A DNA stretch of 64,000 bases, taken from positions 3,366,001-3,430,000 of the forward strand of contig NZ_CP011270.1 of the NCBI RefSeq assembly GCF_001610835.1. Direction: 5' to 3'. The first letter of the stretch is position 1. The number at the start of each line of letters is the position of its first letter. The DNA comes from Planctomyces sp. SH-PL14 (GTDB taxonomy: Bacteria > Planctomycetota > Planctomycetia > Planctomycetales > Planctomycetaceae). Made by a program: the position numbers and the translations under genes. Positions 1 to 44,906 of this stretch are shown piece by piece. A model generated the notes under the pieces. That model made no database searches and was not told the DNA's origin. It saw only the letters and a list, made by a program, of their open reading frames with translations.

Positions 1-102
1 TTGCTGGGGCCGGCGATTGTGGAGTTGTCGAACTTCTTCAATCGCGGTGGTTCGGACATCTTGAATACGGGTGGCCGCGCAGTTCAGCAGTCGCGCCGCT
101 AA
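1..102 (+). CDS. C-terminal end of an unidentified protein (partial)
   Basis: The first 33 codons of the window are open in frame 1 and end at a TAA at 100-102. The visible tail reads LLGPAIVELSNFF and ends in QQSRR. It has no recognisable domain. It is a partial gene whose start lies left of the window. A dispersed repeat begins only 16 bases after the stop, and I see no T-run terminator between them. Function cannot be assigned. Confidence 0.5.
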   Translation: MLGPAIVELSNFFNRGGSDILNTGGRAVQQSRR

Positions 103-9043: not shown

Positions 9044-9559
9044 TCAGTCCGCCTTCACCAGGAACAGGGTCTGGCCGAATTCCACGGCGTCCCCGTCCTT
9101 GGCCAGGATCTTGGTGATCGTTCCGGCAACGTCCGCCTTGATCGGGTTGAAGAACTTCATCGCCTCGACGAGGCAGACGGTCGTATCCGCCTTGACCTTG
9201 TCCCCCACCTTGACGAAGGCGGGCTCGCCCGGCTGCGGCGACGCGTAGAACGACCCGACCATCGGGCTCTTGACCGGCGTTCCGACGTCAGCCGCCGGGG
9301 CGGCGGGAGCGGCGGCCGCGGGAGCCGCAGCGACCGGAGCCGGCGCGGCGTGAGCCATGGGAGCGGCCGGAAGCGGGATCGACGGGTAGCCGGCCATCGG
9401 GTGCATCGGCACGGCGGGCACGAGTTCCTTGGTGCCGCGGCGGAGGAGCCACTGCTGGTCGCCCCGGCGAAGGCGGACTTCGCGAAGGTCGTGCTTCTCC
9501 ATCAGCTCGATCAGCTGCTGCAGTTTGTCGAGATCGAACGTCTCACTGGACTGGGCCAT
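9044..9559 (-). CDS. accB: Biotin carboxyl carrier protein of acetyl-CoA carboxylase
   Basis: A 171-residue BCCP. The N-terminal helical region ([18 protein letters not shown]) is followed by an alanine/proline-rich hinge (about residues 55-92) and a C-terminal biotinyl domain. The biotin acceptor is Lys135 in [11 protein letters not shown]; the usual residues after the lysine (LM, VM or MM) are FF here. AccB accepts the biotin-bound carboxyl group from AccC, encoded downstream on the same strand, and hands it to the carboxyltransferase, whose genes are not in this window. The upstream 560 bases contain no other gene, so the promoter for accBC should lie there. Confidence 0.95.
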
Positions 9560-10122
9560 CGTGGTCTCTAGTGGGAACTTCGCTCAGGTCGCGGAGCGAG
9601 ATCGGGTCATCGGCTGACGGGGTCGCGGAGGAGCGGTTTGCGGGAGACTCTGGGAGTCTCGTCTCAAACATCTCGGCCGCTTCGCGAGCCGACCCCTGGT
9701 CGGAGCGGAGCGCGAAGCTGGAAAAATATAGTGGCGGAGAAGTTCCAGCAACCGACGTCCTGGCCGGCGGGGGCTGGAACGTCTCACGTCCGCCACGCCG
9801 CAGCGAAAGAGCCCCGTCATAAGGAGAGAAGCAATTTCCGCAGTCGGTCGTCATTGCCCAGGGAGAGAAGAGTCGACGAGACGGGCCGCAAAGAGGCGAC
9901 TTCCTTGAGAAAATGTCATCCCTTGCTGATCTCAACTTCCGACATCGATCGGCGCGAGTCAGCTCCGCCTCCTGACCTTGGACACACGCCCGGAGAAACC
10001 CTGGGTGGGCGTTTTCCAAGCAGAAACCATGCTCGGGGACCGTTCATCGTGATAGATGGAAGCTCGAACTTTCCCCTTGACGGAGGGGCGCCTCGCAACC
10101 GATATTCCAGATGCGATTTGAA
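9560..10122. other. Gene-free region upstream of accB
   Basis: About 560 bases between the accB start (leftward) and the promoter at 10123 (rightward). Several frames are open, but their translations are arginine/serine-rich with no family resemblance, so I read them as GC artefacts. An imperfect hairpin, GAGACTCTGGGAGTCTC, lies near 9653-9669. The accBC promoter should be here, but I could not pick a convincing -35/-10 pair. Confidence 0.4.
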
Positions 10123-10150
10123 TTGACAGTTTCCCCGAGGGGAGTACGAT
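10123..10150 (+). promoter_or_regulatory. Sigma-70-type promoter ahead of a non-coding stretch
   Basis: TTGACA (10123-10128) and TACGAT (10145-10150) are separated by 16 bases. The -35 is a perfect consensus match and the -10 matches TATAAT at four of six positions. Transcription would start around 10157. No reading frame of family resemblance follows for 850 bases; instead there are several strong hairpins and a T-run terminator. Confidence 0.5.
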
Positions 10151-10156
10151 TTGAGT

Positions 10157-10507
10157 CGCACGAGGTTCGTGAAGACCTTCTTTCTGGTGGCACGGAAAGC
10201 TGCGGGATTACGACTCTGGTCTCCTGCACACGGGTTTGGCGAACCGGCTTACGAATTCGCTCGTAGTTTCCCAACGCGATTCAAAGCTCTACGGTCCTTG
10301 CGGACCCAAAAACCACACGGATCCCTCCTGGATCATTTTCGGGATCAGTCCCGTGTGTTTTGAAGAGTCTTGAGTTCCTGGGAGGCGTCGAGTCTCCTCA
10401 CGCCTCGGTCCCCGAGGTCGGGGCTTATGGCCCGGTCGTGAGGAGGAGACGAGGAGGCTTGCGTGCCTGGATCCGGTCAGCGTTGGCCGGCTCCGAGTCG
10501 TTTTTTT
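10157..10507 (+). ncRNA. Candidate structured non-coding RNA upstream of rho
   Basis: The stretch from the inferred start near 10157 to the T7 run at 10501-10507 contains stacked hairpins: GGTCC-TTGC-GGACC (about 10293-10306), CACACGG to CCGTGTG (10314-10357), GTCTCCTCACG to CGTGAGGAGGAGAC enclosing CCTCGG/CCGAGG (10392-10450), and the terminator stem at 10469-10494. CGACTC near 10208 can also pair with GAGTCG just before the T-run. I looked for RNase P, tmRNA, SRP and T-box signatures and did not recognise them. It could be a housekeeping RNA diverged beyond recognition, a new sRNA, or an attenuated leader. Confidence 0.4.
10469..10507 (+). terminator. Intrinsic terminator with T7 run
   Basis: The stem GGATCCGGTC / GGCCGGCTCC (10469-10494, one mismatch and one G-T pair) is followed 6 bases later by seven T residues. 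The CGAGTCG between stem and T-run can pair further upstream. It would end the transcript started at 10123 well before rho. Confidence 0.55.
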
Positions 10508-11004
10508 GATGTGCGGCCCGTTGGTTGCACAAGTGTCAAGCTTCGCAGCAGGCGATGAGGTTGCTGCGGTTCGAGTGGGACTTCTGTCAGAACGGCGATT
10601 CGACATCCTTCTCAGTCGATTCCAGTTGAGCAGAACGTCTCCTGAGCGAGTGTGTTTGCGGTTTCGCGAACCCTCAATGGTTTCTCCCCGGCAGGTTCCC
10701 ATGGCAGGAGTGGTTCTCCTGCAGAATCGCCGGACCTCCCTGTGGCGTCGAGTTGCGAGATTTCGGTCATTGTGCTGCGAGTCTGTCCGGAGATGTGGCT
10801 GTCGCCTGCGGGTCGAATGCGGATGGCATCGATCCGCTTCCCAGGGTTGGGCGACTTCCAATGCTCCGGACCGTCTGTCCATGTCGGCCAATCTGGACTC
10901 CGCTTCGATGCGGTCTTATGTCTTTGTCCATCACTCAAGGAATGGCATTGCCCGAACAGTCCGCTCGCTGATGACTGTTTGAAGTGATCTCTCTGGAACT
11001 TTCC
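10508..11004 (+). other. Gene-free leader region upstream of rho
   Basis: Roughly 500 bases between the T-run and the rho start. Frames are open on both strands, but the translations are compositionally odd, rich in Arg, Ser and Cys, and match no family I know. I therefore treat it as the rho promoter and 5' leader. Rho genes are often autoregulated through a long leader, which would fit, but no specific element is visible. Confidence 0.35.
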
Positions 11005-13098
11005 ATGCCCACCAATCGCTCACGTTCTACGTCCGGCAGCAGCCGGTCGACCACTCCCCGCCGCACCACCCGCAAGAAGGCGGAGCCGGTGGAGTCGATC
11101 CCGGAGCAGGACGATGTCGCTCTCGGCTTCGACTACGAAGAATCGGCCGACGCCGACTTCGGCGATGAAGAGCCGGCCGAAGAAGAAGCGGTCGCCGAAG
11201 AAGCCCCCAAGAAACGCCGCGCTCCCGCCAAGGCCAAGGCCGCCGCTCCCAAGAAGCGCCGCTCCACCAAGGCCGCCGAAGCCGAGGCCGAAGAAGCTCC
11301 GGCTCCCCGCGGCAAGGCCGCCCCGGTCGAAGCGGACGATGACTTCGGCGCCGGGGTCGATGTCCCCGAGCCGACTCCCGCTCCGTCCCCCATGCGGGCC
11401 GCGGCCTCCAAGCCGGCTCCGCCGGTGGTCGTGAAAGAGAACACCTACGCCTCGTACGGTCGCGATGACGACGATGAGGCGGACGAATTCGAAGACGGAG
11501 ATTTCGAAGACGAAGGAGAAACCGCTCAAGGCTCCGGCGAAGGGGGCGAAGAAGGCGATCCCGGCCGCAAGAAGAAGCGCCGTCGCCGTCGTCGCAAAAA
11601 GAAGGGCGCCGCTGGTGAAGGGGCTCCCGAAGGGGGAGCCGCTCCGGCCGCTCCTGCGCCTCGTTCCGAAGGTCCGATGGATCGCGGTCCGGGCGGCGGA
11701 GGGGGCGGAGGCGGAATGCCGCAGCGGAATTTCCGCGATCGCGGCAACTTCCAGCAGGGTGGCGGAGGCGGTGGCTACCAGGGACGCTACGACCGCGGAC
11801 CTCAAGGGGGCGGCGGTGGACGCTACCAGCAGGACCGTGGACCGGGCGGCCCCGGCGGGAACCGTTACAACGACCGTCCGCAGCAGCAGCAATACGGCGC
11901 CCGTCGTCCTCCCAACCGCGGTGGCATGCCGACCGCCAAGTACCAGCGGAACGCGCCTCCAGTCGATATGGGTGCGGTGCAGACCGGGACTCTGGAAGGG
12001 GTCCTCGAACTCCATCCCAAGGGATACGGCTTCCTCCGCGACGCGTCGAACGATTTCGGCGCCCGTGAGACCGACGCCTTCGTCTCCAGCTCGTTCGTCG
12101 AGCGGCATCATCTCCGCGAGGGGATTCTGCTGAAGGGTGAAGTCGGACCGGGAAGCCGTGGCCAGGGACCGCGTCTGCTTTCGATCGAGTCGATCGACGG
12201 CAAGCCGGTCGAGGACTACGAGGCCCTCAAGCACTTCGACACCTTGACCGCCATCAATCCGTTCGAGCTGATCAAGCTCGAGAGCGGGTCGACGCCGATC
12301 AGCATGCGGGTCATGGACCTGCTCTGTCCGATCGGCAAGGGGCAGCGGGCGCTGATCGTCGCTCCGCCCCGCAGCGGTAAGACGATGCTCCTTCAGGACA
12401 TCGCCAACTCGGTCTCGAAGAACCATCCCGAGATTCACCTCATCGTGCTGCTCATCGACGAGCGGCCCGAGGAAGTGACCGAGATGAAGAAGACGGTTCG
12501 GGGCGAGATCATCGCGTCCTCGATGGACCGCGACATCGAGAGCCACGTCCGGATCAGTCAGCTCATCGTCGAACGCGGCAAGCGGATCGCGGAGTCGGGC
12601 AAGGACTGCTTCATCCTGCTGGACAGCATCACCCGGACCGCCCGCGCCTTCAACAAGTGGGTCGGCGGCGGCCGCGATGCGAAGATCCAGACCGGTGGTC
12701 TCGACGTCCGGGCGATGGAAATCCCCCGCAAGATGTTCGGTACCGCCCGGCGGTTCGAAGAAGGCGGCTCGCTGACCGTCTGTGGAACGTGTCTTGTCGA
12801 CACGGGAAGCAAGATGGACGACGCGATCTTCCAGGAGTTCAAGGGGACCGGCAACATGGAAATGGTGCTGAGCCGCGACCTGGCCGACCGCCGCATCTGG
12901 CCCGCGATCGACATCACGAAGTCCGGCACCCGCCGTGAGGAGAAGCTCCTCTCGCCCGAGGTGTATGACGGGGTGACGATGCTCCGTCGGAGCCTGATCA
13001 ATATGAACCCGGTCGAGGCGATGGAGCAGCTCAGCCGCACGCTGGCGAAGTTCCCGTCGAACAAGGAGTTCCTCGAGCGGCTGAAGAACATTCTCTAG
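11005..13098 (+). CDS. rho: Transcription termination factor Rho with a long disordered N-terminal region
   Basis: A 697-residue Rho, far longer than the roughly 420 residues of the classical protein. From about residue 325 it is canonical: the OB-fold RNA-binding segment (GVLELHPKGYGFLRD), then the RecA-type ATPase with Walker A APPRSGKTMLLQD near residue 453, the LIDERPEEVTEM stretch and the C-terminal arginine-finger region. The first 310 residues are low complexity: acidic/Ala-Lys-rich (GFDYEESADADFGDEE), then a KKRRRRRRKKK patch, then a Gly/Arg/Gln-rich section with many RG and GGGG repeats. I prefer ATG 11005 over GTG 10984. A strong terminator follows at 13158. Confidence 0.97.
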   Translation: MPTNRSRSTSGSSRSTTPRRTTRKKAEPVESIPEQDDVALGFDYEESADADFGDEEPAEEEAVAEEAPKKRRAPAKAKAAAPKKRRSTKAAEAEAEEAPAPRGKAAPVEADDDFGAGVDVPEPTPAPSPMRAAASKPAPPVVVKENTYASYGRDDDDEADEFEDGDFEDEGETAQGSGEGGEEGDPGRKKKRRRRRRKKKGAAGEGAPEGGAAPAAPAPRSEGPMDRGPGGGGGGGGMPQRNFRDRGNFQQGGGGGGYQGRYDRGPQGGGGGRYQQDRGPGGPGGNRYNDRPQQQQYGARRPPNRGGMPTAKYQRNAPPVDMGAVQTGTLEGVLELHPKGYGFLRDASNDFGARETDAFVSSSFVERHHLREGILLKGEVGPGSRGQGPRLLSIESIDGKPVEDYEALKHFDTLTAINPFELIKLESGSTPISMRVMDLLCPIGKGQRALIVAPPRSGKTMLLQDIANSVSKNHPEIHLIVLLIDERPEEVTEMKKTVRGEIIASSMDRDIESHVRISQLIVERGKRIAESGKDCFILLDSITRTARAFNKWVGGGRDAKIQTGGLDVRAMEIPRKMFGTARRFEEGGSLTVCGTCLVDTGSKMDDAIFQEFKGTGNMEMVLSRDLADRRIWPAIDITKSGTRREEKLLSPEVYDGVTMLRRSLINMNPVEAMEQLSRTLAKFPSNKEFLERLKNIL

Positions 13099-26752: not shown

Positions 26753-28153
26753 TCAGGCCACGATGTCGTGAACGACACGGCCGTCGACATCCGTCAGCCG
26801 ATAGTCTCGGCCCGCATGCCGATACGTCAGCCGCTCATGATCAAGCCCCAAGAGGTGCAGGATCGTGGCATGGAAGTCATGAACATGCACCTTCTTCTCA
26901 CCGACCGCCACACCATAGTCGTCCGACGAACCGTAGGTCATTCCCCCCTTGACCCCACCTCCCGCCATCCAGGACGAAAACACCTGATGGTGATGCTCGC
27001 GCCCCTTGGCCTCGGCGCTGACGTTGTAAGGGGTCCGGCCGAACTCCGTCGTCCAGACGACCAGAGTCCGCTCCAGAAGACCTGACCGCTTGAGGTCGGT
27101 CAGCAATCCCGCGATCGGCTGATCGATCGCCTGAGCCAGCGGGCCGTGCGCCGCCATGTCGCCGTGCGAGTCCCAGTTGGCCGCCGACCCCGAGCCGGTA
27201 TCGATCAGCTCAATGAACCGCACCCCCCGCTCGACCAGCCGCCGGGCGACGAGACACTGCCAGCCGAACCCGGACGTCGCCCCGCGCTGGAGCCCGTAGA
27301 GCGCGAGCGTCGCCTCGGTCTCCTGCGAGATGTTGAAAGCGTCTGGCGCCTCGCGCTGCATCCCGAAGGCGGTCTCGAACGAGCGGATCCGGGCTTCGAG
27401 TGCCTGATCGGCGGCGCGAGCCTCCTGATGCCCGCGGTTGAGCTCCGCCAGCAGGTCGAGCTCCATCCGCTGCAGCGACTCCGAAGGGGCGAGCGGCGCA
27501 AGGTTCGGCAGCGGCTCATTGCCCGGCAGGACGTGCGTCCCCTGGTGGCAGCCGGGGAGGAAATCGCTCCCCCAGGTCTGAGCCCCGGCGTAGGGGGCGG
27601 CGGGGGCGAGCACCATGAATGAGGGGAGGTTCCGGTTCTCGGTCCCCAGGCCGTAACTGACCCAGGCCCCGATGCTCGGCCGGGCGAAGTTGAACGAGCC
27701 GGTGTGCATCCCCATCGTGGCTTTGTCGTGCCCGGTGTGGTCGCCGGAAACGGAGTTCAGGATGCAGACGTCATCGATCACGCCGCCGATCTGTGGAAAC
27801 AGATCGCTGACCGGCACGCCGCTCTCGCCGCGAAGGCGGAACTCCCAGTTCGGCCGCTTCAGGAACCGCGGGAACTCCCCTTTCTTCCCCTGCCAGTTGT
27901 CGACCGTGATCGTCTTCCCGTGATCGGCAAAGAGCTTCGGCTTGTAGTCGAAGCTGTCGACGTGCGAGGCCCCGCCGGTCGAGAACAGGAAGATCACGTT
28001 CTCGGCCCGGGCCGGAAAGTGCGCCGGCCGCGGCGCGAGCGGATCGGAAGCCGCCGCATGGGCCTCTCCTGTCTCGGTGAGGAGCCCAGCCAAGGCAATG
28101 GAACCGAAGCCGCCGGCGGCGCGAGTCAAAAGTTCTCGGCGGGACAGGGACAT
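26753..28153 (-). CDS. DUF1501 family protein with Tat signal
   Basis: A 466-residue protein. The start ATG 28153 gives the Tat signal MSLSRRELLTRAAGGFGS. The upstream extension in this frame overlaps the neighbouring gene and is not native. DUF1501 hallmarks are FLFSTGGASHVDSFDYKP and TTEFGRTPYN followed by GREHHHQVFSSW. It lies 8 bases downstream of the DUF1549/DUF1553 gene on the same strand, so the two form one transcript. Catalytic function is unknown for the family. Confidence 0.9.
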   Translation of the reverse strand: MSLSRRELLTRAAGGFGSIALAGLLTETGEAHAAASDPLAPRPAHFPARAENVIFLFSTGGASHVDSFDYKPKLFADHGKTITVDNWQGKKGEFPRFLKRPNWEFRLRGESGVPVSDLFPQIGGVIDDVCILNSVSGDHTGHDKATMGMHTGSFNFARPSIGAWVSYGLGTENRNLPSFMVLAPAAPYAGAQTWGSDFLPGCHQGTHVLPGNEPLPNLAPLAPSESLQRMELDLLAELNRGHQEARAADQALEARIRSFETAFGMQREAPDAFNISQETEATLALYGLQRGATSGFGWQCLVARRLVERGVRFIELIDTGSGSAANWDSHGDMAAHGPLAQAIDQPIAGLLTDLKRSGLLERTLVVWTTEFGRTPYNVSAEAKGREHHHQVFSSWMAGGGVKGGMTYGSSDDYGVAVGEKKVHVHDFHATILHLLGLDHERLTYRHAGRDYRLTDVDGRVVHDIVA

Positions 28154-44834: not shown

Positions 44835-44906
44835 AGTGGGGTGGAGCAGAGGTAGCTCGCCGGGCTCATAACCCGGAGGTCGTGGGTTCGAATCCCACCC
44901 CCACAA
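44835..44906 (+). tRNA. tRNA-fMet(CAT), phage-encoded initiator
   Basis: A complete cloverleaf: acceptor AGTGGGG / CCCCACA with an unpaired A1-A72, the absence of a 1-72 pair being the mark of bacterial initiators; D-arm GAGC-AGAGGTA-GCTC; anticodon arm CCGGG-CTCATAA-CCCGG with three consecutive G-C pairs next to the loop, again an initiator trait; T-arm GTGGG-TTCGAAT-CCCAC; discriminator A. CCA is not encoded (ACTGG follows). The D-loop is two bases shorter than in E. coli tRNA-fMet. It lies inside the prophage. Confidence 0.88.

Follow-up and report, generated by a model that had tools for sequence, protein, structure and literature searches.

We consider it reasonably likely that positions 10123-10507 of the window (the whole 64,000-nt stretch of the Planctomyces sp. 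SH-PL14 genome analyzed here) comprise a promoter and the first 350 nt of a rho mRNA leader of ca. 850 nt, through which Rho would be limited by attenuation. From its sequence, the leader is predicted to be transcribed together with rho from that upstream promoter and, by analogy with other bacteria, it probably sets the amount of Rho in the cell. An earlier note on this DNA had suggested a possible structured RNA at this place, which would be a separate RNA or belong to the control of rho; comparative evidence favors the latter and not a free-standing RNA. The involvement in rho control is argued from the promoter being kept upstream of rho, with no other promoter-like site between them, from structure that in relatives starts at the promoter, and from the lack of a conserved terminator.

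The rho gene is located at 11005-13098 on the plus strand and codes for 697 aa (ATG at 11005, with an in-frame GTG at 10984), with the Pfam domains PF07497 (Rho_RNA_bind) and PF00006 (ATP-synt_ab). The N-terminal extension of the protein, ca. 320 residues (window 11005-11973), is charged and Gly/Arg-rich. The inferred leader extends from 10154 to 11004, ca. 850 nt, with a structured 5' part (10154-10507, plus strand), i.e., the RNA of the earlier note, followed by a remainder (10508-11004, plus strand) that is less structured by folding and free of promoter-like sites by promoter scan. At 79 loci, a set that includes the window itself, some identical or near-identical genomes (e.g., L083/L136) and two TTGACT promoters added by hand (L128 and L129), the inferred start and the leftmost start codon of rho are 359 to 1413 nt apart (median, 758), and these lengths are lower bounds, the leftmost in-frame rho start having been taken. 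The element is single copy in the genome by nucleotide search. There is a second rho gene in the same genome (L141, G000:C1:8401898-8402989), 48% identical in the core, and no such promoter was found within 1.5 kb upstream of it; two rho matches were listed for 99 of the 120 genomes of the family that were searched. The divergent neighbor on the other side of the element is an ORF (9044-9559, minus strand) that we take to be accB-like, judging from the sequence itself and from its position ahead of an ORF that we likewise take to be accC-like. The minus strand upstream of this ORF, at 9560-9850, has a strong fold (z of -4.2 at 9660-9779) and a GAGACTC/GAGTCTC hairpin, and might be another leader RNA, for the divergent side.

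The promoter described in the earlier note is an exact match at 10123-10150 (plus strand), with TTGACA at 10123-10128 as the -35 element, a 16-nt spacer, and TACGAT at 10145-10150 as the -10 element. It is the single TTGACA-15..17-TANNNT site in the 64 kb when both strands are scanned (0.05 expected), and TTGACA-N16-TANNNT occurs at 23 sites in the 8.44-Mb genome versus 6 for a reversed-pattern control. A weaker promoter-like sequence, TTGACG-18-GATATT, begins at 10077, upstream of the main promoter. Judging by the distance from the -10 element and by the purine preference in leaders, transcription probably starts at 10154-10158 (plus strand), and the structured transcript would begin there. 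This preference is found at the seventh and eighth bases past the -10 element (A in 34 and G in 30 of the 59 leaders kept after removing those >60% identical over the first 100 nt, ungapped).

On the rho strand, TTGACA-15..17-TANNNT was present within 1.5 kb upstream of rho at 77 of 94 loci, a set with at least 1 kb upstream that comes nearly all from the window's family (with a few from other families, e.g., L118 and L119), includes the window itself, and retains some identical or near-identical genomes, e.g., L045/L123, L070/L131 and L083/L136. In 20 shuffles, 0 to 4 of the 94 loci had the same pattern, and on the reverse strand a single locus had it; 17 of the 94 have no promoter by this pattern, and a slightly different scan was positive at 77 of 99 rho loci. 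The comparison was extended to 40 rho loci from other families of the same class, of which 15 have the exact TTGACA (spacer of 16 or 18) upstream of rho; with one -35 mismatch permitted, there is a promoter at 17 and none at 23. It was absent from all loci of f2 (5/5) and f11 (6/6) and from seven of the eight of f3. As defined by this sequence pattern, the promoter upstream of rho is conserved in the window's family and, beyond it, in several more of the families that make up the class. In f2, f3, and f4, which lack the exact promoter, the frame ahead of the rho core match is no longer than 28 nt at 9 of 14 loci. No second promoter was found between the 10123 site and rho when 10508-11004 was scanned, and neither was a strict or relaxed one in any of the 79 leaders, searched from 60 nt past the -10 element to the leftmost start codon.

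The segment is indeed structured, as the earlier note had claimed, with 10150-10510 folding better than its dinucleotide shuffles (z of -3.1; 0 of 100 shuffles as good). Most of this signal comes from 10260-10379 (z of -3.6) and 10380-10499 (z of -2.3), and six local pieces folded separately gave z values from +0.3 to -2.3. Within the first of these regions is a hairpin with CACACGG/CCGTGTG arms (10307-10362, plus strand; local z of -1.66), and a long imperfect G+C-rich hairpin occupies 10378-10470 (plus strand; -49.1 kcal/mol, z of -1.62), its final bases overlapping the foot of the stem that begins at 10468. The long-range CGACTC/GAGTCG pairing suggested before does exist (CGACTC at 10211 and GAGTCG at 10495, with a second copy at 10153) but is not above chance, since complementary 6-mers separated by 100 nt or more form 16 pairs in the segment versus 10.9 expected. 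A switch shared among leaders, with GAGTC copies competing for CGACTC, was also considered and dropped, as enrichment was not clear (80 copies versus 64 ± 9 in 55 leaders, i.e., the 59 above with 4 further leaders dropped for the k-mer test).

Indications of structure also come from the relatives. Alignment-fold (alifold) energies were compared with those of column-shuffled alignments for 11 sets (45 sequences), hand-picked from similarity results and visible leader likeness. Over the first 250 nt of the leader, z was negative in all 11 sets and below -2 in 8, whereas only 1 of 11 was below -2 in the 250 nt that directly precede the promoter, and likewise 1 of 11 in the final 250 nt ahead of rho (group P had z values of -2.0 and -3.7, respectively). 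In the first 120-nt window past the start, the sense strand gave negative z values in 11/11 sets, below -2 in 5, and the antisense strand fell below -2 in 3. The upstream sense windows below -2 were those of set H at -224 (-3.4) and set E at -134 (-3.3); set C had -3.8 at -224 on the antisense strand. Eight leaders of one f5 genus show covariation, with 22 cells in which both sides of a pair change versus 7.5 ± 2.1 in shuffled alignments and at most 5 when the partners are slid, for structures that were derived from the same alignments and in which helix 1 is an artefact that uses bases of the -10 hexamer. Further pair types in this genus showed no excess (30 versus a shuffled mean of 29.7). 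In five aligned sequences from the window's family, a nested domain of ca. 110 nt is seen at the 5' end, with 3 of 26 pairs compensated, again for a structure derived from the alignment in which the pairs were counted. When leaders were folded singly, 57 of 70 were under the shuffle mean and 22 of 70 under all eight shuffles.

The sequence of the leader, on the other hand, is beyond recognition between genera, and leaders of different genera cannot be aligned. A nucleotide search of 58 relatives besides the genome itself returned only short matches (19 to 32 nt, E of 0.02 to 0.09) in 7 of them, and no relative near enough for covariation of the window's own pairs was found among the 58, nor did the searched relatives include any genome from the window's own genus. 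Neither blastn nor nhmmer found a homologue of the element in the rho-upstream regions of relatives, the best blastn match (L046, E of 0.45) covering the promoter. Covariance models of two clades, run against 77 and 70 sources, recovered only leaders of their own clade and weak stray matches (R1 to L157, E of 0.19, and to window 27441-27519, E of 4.7; R2 to L089, E of 2.2), and neither matched the window's leader. As to the covariance analysis proposed as a check in the earlier note, 5' folding is conserved among close relatives, and the two clade models give no support to homology of the fold across genera. No shared motif was established either. The k-mers of a candidate CCGGCTT/AACCGG motif are enriched and have no coherent place in the leaders, and a conserved 80-nt block of Schlesneria-like loci, at first suspected to be a tRNA, gave no tRNA match with Rfam in L091 and L115. 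The leaders of genus g49 of f5 (L149-L151, L160, and L188-L195) contain three GGTAAC-like copies and one GGTTACC, several of whose pairings are mutually exclusive, and this set could be a switch.

A hairpin followed by T7 at 10468-10507 (plus strand) might be an intrinsic terminator or attenuator of the window's lineage; it is not conserved and is at chance level. The T7 run is at 10501-10507, the local minimum-energy stem (10468-10495) stops 5 nt short of it, and a longer stem with imperfect pairing (-17.3 kcal/mol) does reach it. There are 3 terminator-like patterns in the region versus 1.9 ± 1.5 expected. By a lenient test, 20 of the 79 leaders have a T-run hairpin, at scattered places; strong ones are found in 5 of the 79 versus 5, 9, and 3 in three shuffles, a chance level at which we rejected an intrinsic terminator as a conserved stop. 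The stem and the T7 of the earlier note are real, but neither conserved nor in excess over chance, and the proposed end of the RNA at 10507 finds no support beyond chance, T-run hairpins being scattered in relatives. These data also bear on a variant in which a terminated or processed leader is released as a short RNA acting elsewhere, with the rho mRNA produced by read-through. The T7 hairpin of the window and the concentration of conserved structure toward the 5' end of the leader would fit such a product, but with no conserved 3' end in the 79 leaders and no k-mer coherently placed in the leaders used for the k-mer test, we regard it as unlikely. An independent noncoding RNA of ca. 350 nt, with its start set by the 10123 promoter, its end at 10507 by the hairpin and T7, and only an incidental adjacency to rho, is quite improbable. 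It would have a consensus promoter, a stable fold, and a hairpin whose extended stem reaches the T run, but strong T-run hairpins are at chance and the promoter stays with rho in most loci, whereas the other neighbor of the window is not kept: accB/accC-like neighbors upstream of rho were found in none of 80 loci, and an accC match appeared downstream of rho at one (L113). Moreover, rho would be left without any recognizable promoter.

The element has no recognizable protein frame, in agreement with the earlier note, as three overlapping ORFs have no Pfam match and six ORFs searched by tblastn against 138 rho loci gave nothing better than an E of 0.07. A conserved leader peptide was discarded for the relatives too, being absent in six of seven groups; group F (three close sequences) has three short GTG frames. 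The Rfam search that had been proposed as a check was run (Rfam 15), and no family matches the element at gathering score or, within 9560-11010, at E values up to 5. The only weak match nearby lies outside the element (9801-9860, E of 2.4), and the sole gathering-score match in the window is a tRNA at 44835-44906. RNase P RNA (RF00010) and tmRNA (RF00023) have no match in the window and are encoded elsewhere in the genome (C1:357447-357833 and C1:6856644-6856999, respectively), and SRP RNA was not matched in the Rfam scan of the window. The earlier description of an unannotated structured RNA that is neither RNase P nor tmRNA is thus borne out.

When 20 other consensus-promoter sites of the genome were scanned, a known RNA was found downstream on the same strand in three: a cobalamin riboswitch (with the model match starting inside the -10 element), a fluoride riboswitch (abutting the -10 element), and a tRNA ca. 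110 nt downstream. The first region (L208, G000:C1:566035) has two divergent cobalamin riboswitches, of which one begins at the -10 element of a TTGACA-16-TATCTT promoter; in the second (L218, G000:C1:4418828), the fluoride riboswitch match follows directly after a TTGACA-16-TATCCT promoter, which makes it useful as a marker when start sites of this genome are predicted. There are, therefore, precedents in the same genome for a promoter of this type being followed by a structured cis-regulatory leader. The rho leader is like those of L208 and L218 in having a TTGACA-16-TANNNT promoter before a structured RNA and unlike them in having no Rfam aptamer match and a sequence that is not kept between genera. 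These two promoters running straight into riboswitches, together with the covariation within one genus, could suggest that what the rho leader senses is not Rho but an ion or a small molecule. Known aptamers retain their sequence over long distances, and a riboswitch is very unlikely because the rho leaders do not align between genera; neither is there an aptamer match. Finally, ordinary intergenic DNA with a promoter, folding as any G+C-rich sequence would, agrees with the local pieces of the window, which beat their shuffles by a modest margin at best, but it is scarcely credible when the segment as a whole folds better than its shuffles and, in the relatives, alignment-level structure sets in at the promoter, with values mostly close to zero before it.

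The preferred reading, a rho leader with attenuation, has counterparts in other bacteria. The leader region of rho in E. coli and Salmonella goes under the name rhoL. An autoregulation by attenuation, in which Rho halts transcription within its own leader, is described for E. coli and other bacteria (PMC6582626), and in Salmonella, the rho leader is described as protected by SraL (PMC12691595). For B. subtilis, rho is reported to be under attenuation, with candidate loading sites in the 5' untranslated region and the early coding part that came from a selection with E. coli Rho, not with the B. subtilis protein (PMC12350095). Attenuation in the planctomycete leader is proposed by analogy with these three. 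As described for E. coli and Salmonella, where a premature stop in it sets the Rho level (PMC6582626, PMC12691595), there is an untranslated leader before rho; with B. subtilis the planctomycete shares a proposed attenuation of rho, in a different phylum (PMC12350095). Unlike in E. coli and Salmonella, the planctomycete leader is long (ca. 850 nt here; median, 758 nt for the 79 loci), its folding is conserved near the 5' end, and it has neither a conserved peptide in most groups nor a clear C-rich loading site. A scan of C minus G brought out no clear Rho loading site, rich in C and poor in G, in the leaders, which average slightly more G than C, as does the rho coding region; in the window's leader, C exceeds G per 80 nt in just two parts, 10237-10316 (+9) and the end beginning at 10877 (+4 and +9). 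The lack of a conserved peptide in six of seven groups and of a clear C-rich site speaks against a plain copy of the known mechanism.

Since rho has one recognizable promoter, followed by a long structured leader, its mRNA can be made only by passing through the folded leader. In the mechanism that we propose, transcription from the 10123 promoter would traverse it before reaching rho, the nascent leader would fold, and RNA polymerase could be stopped inside it, short of the gene. If the stop depends on the amount of active Rho, Rho would limit its own synthesis. The hairpin and T7 may add an intrinsic stop that would have to be read through for rho mRNA. A more far-reaching proposal, which we put forward tentatively and regard as possible rather than probable, is that the planctomycete rho leaders all represent a single ancient regulatory RNA that has kept its place, its promoter, and its folding at the 5' end while its sequence was entirely replaced between genera, and which would sense Rho or termination capacity through structure, without a leader peptide or C-rich site. 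In the open-licence PMC literature, among the matches listed, we found no description of a structure-based rho autoregulatory switch and no paper on a planctomycete rho leader.

The conserved promoter and its structured leader of 0.4 to 1.4 kb provide a concrete start site, a leader boundary, and a structured region. A regulatory RNA kept only in place, promoter, and fold would escape sequence searches, which calls for caution in RNA annotation. Autoregulation of rho, known in E. coli, Salmonella, and B. subtilis, would extend to the planctomycetes, a phylum with unusual genomes.
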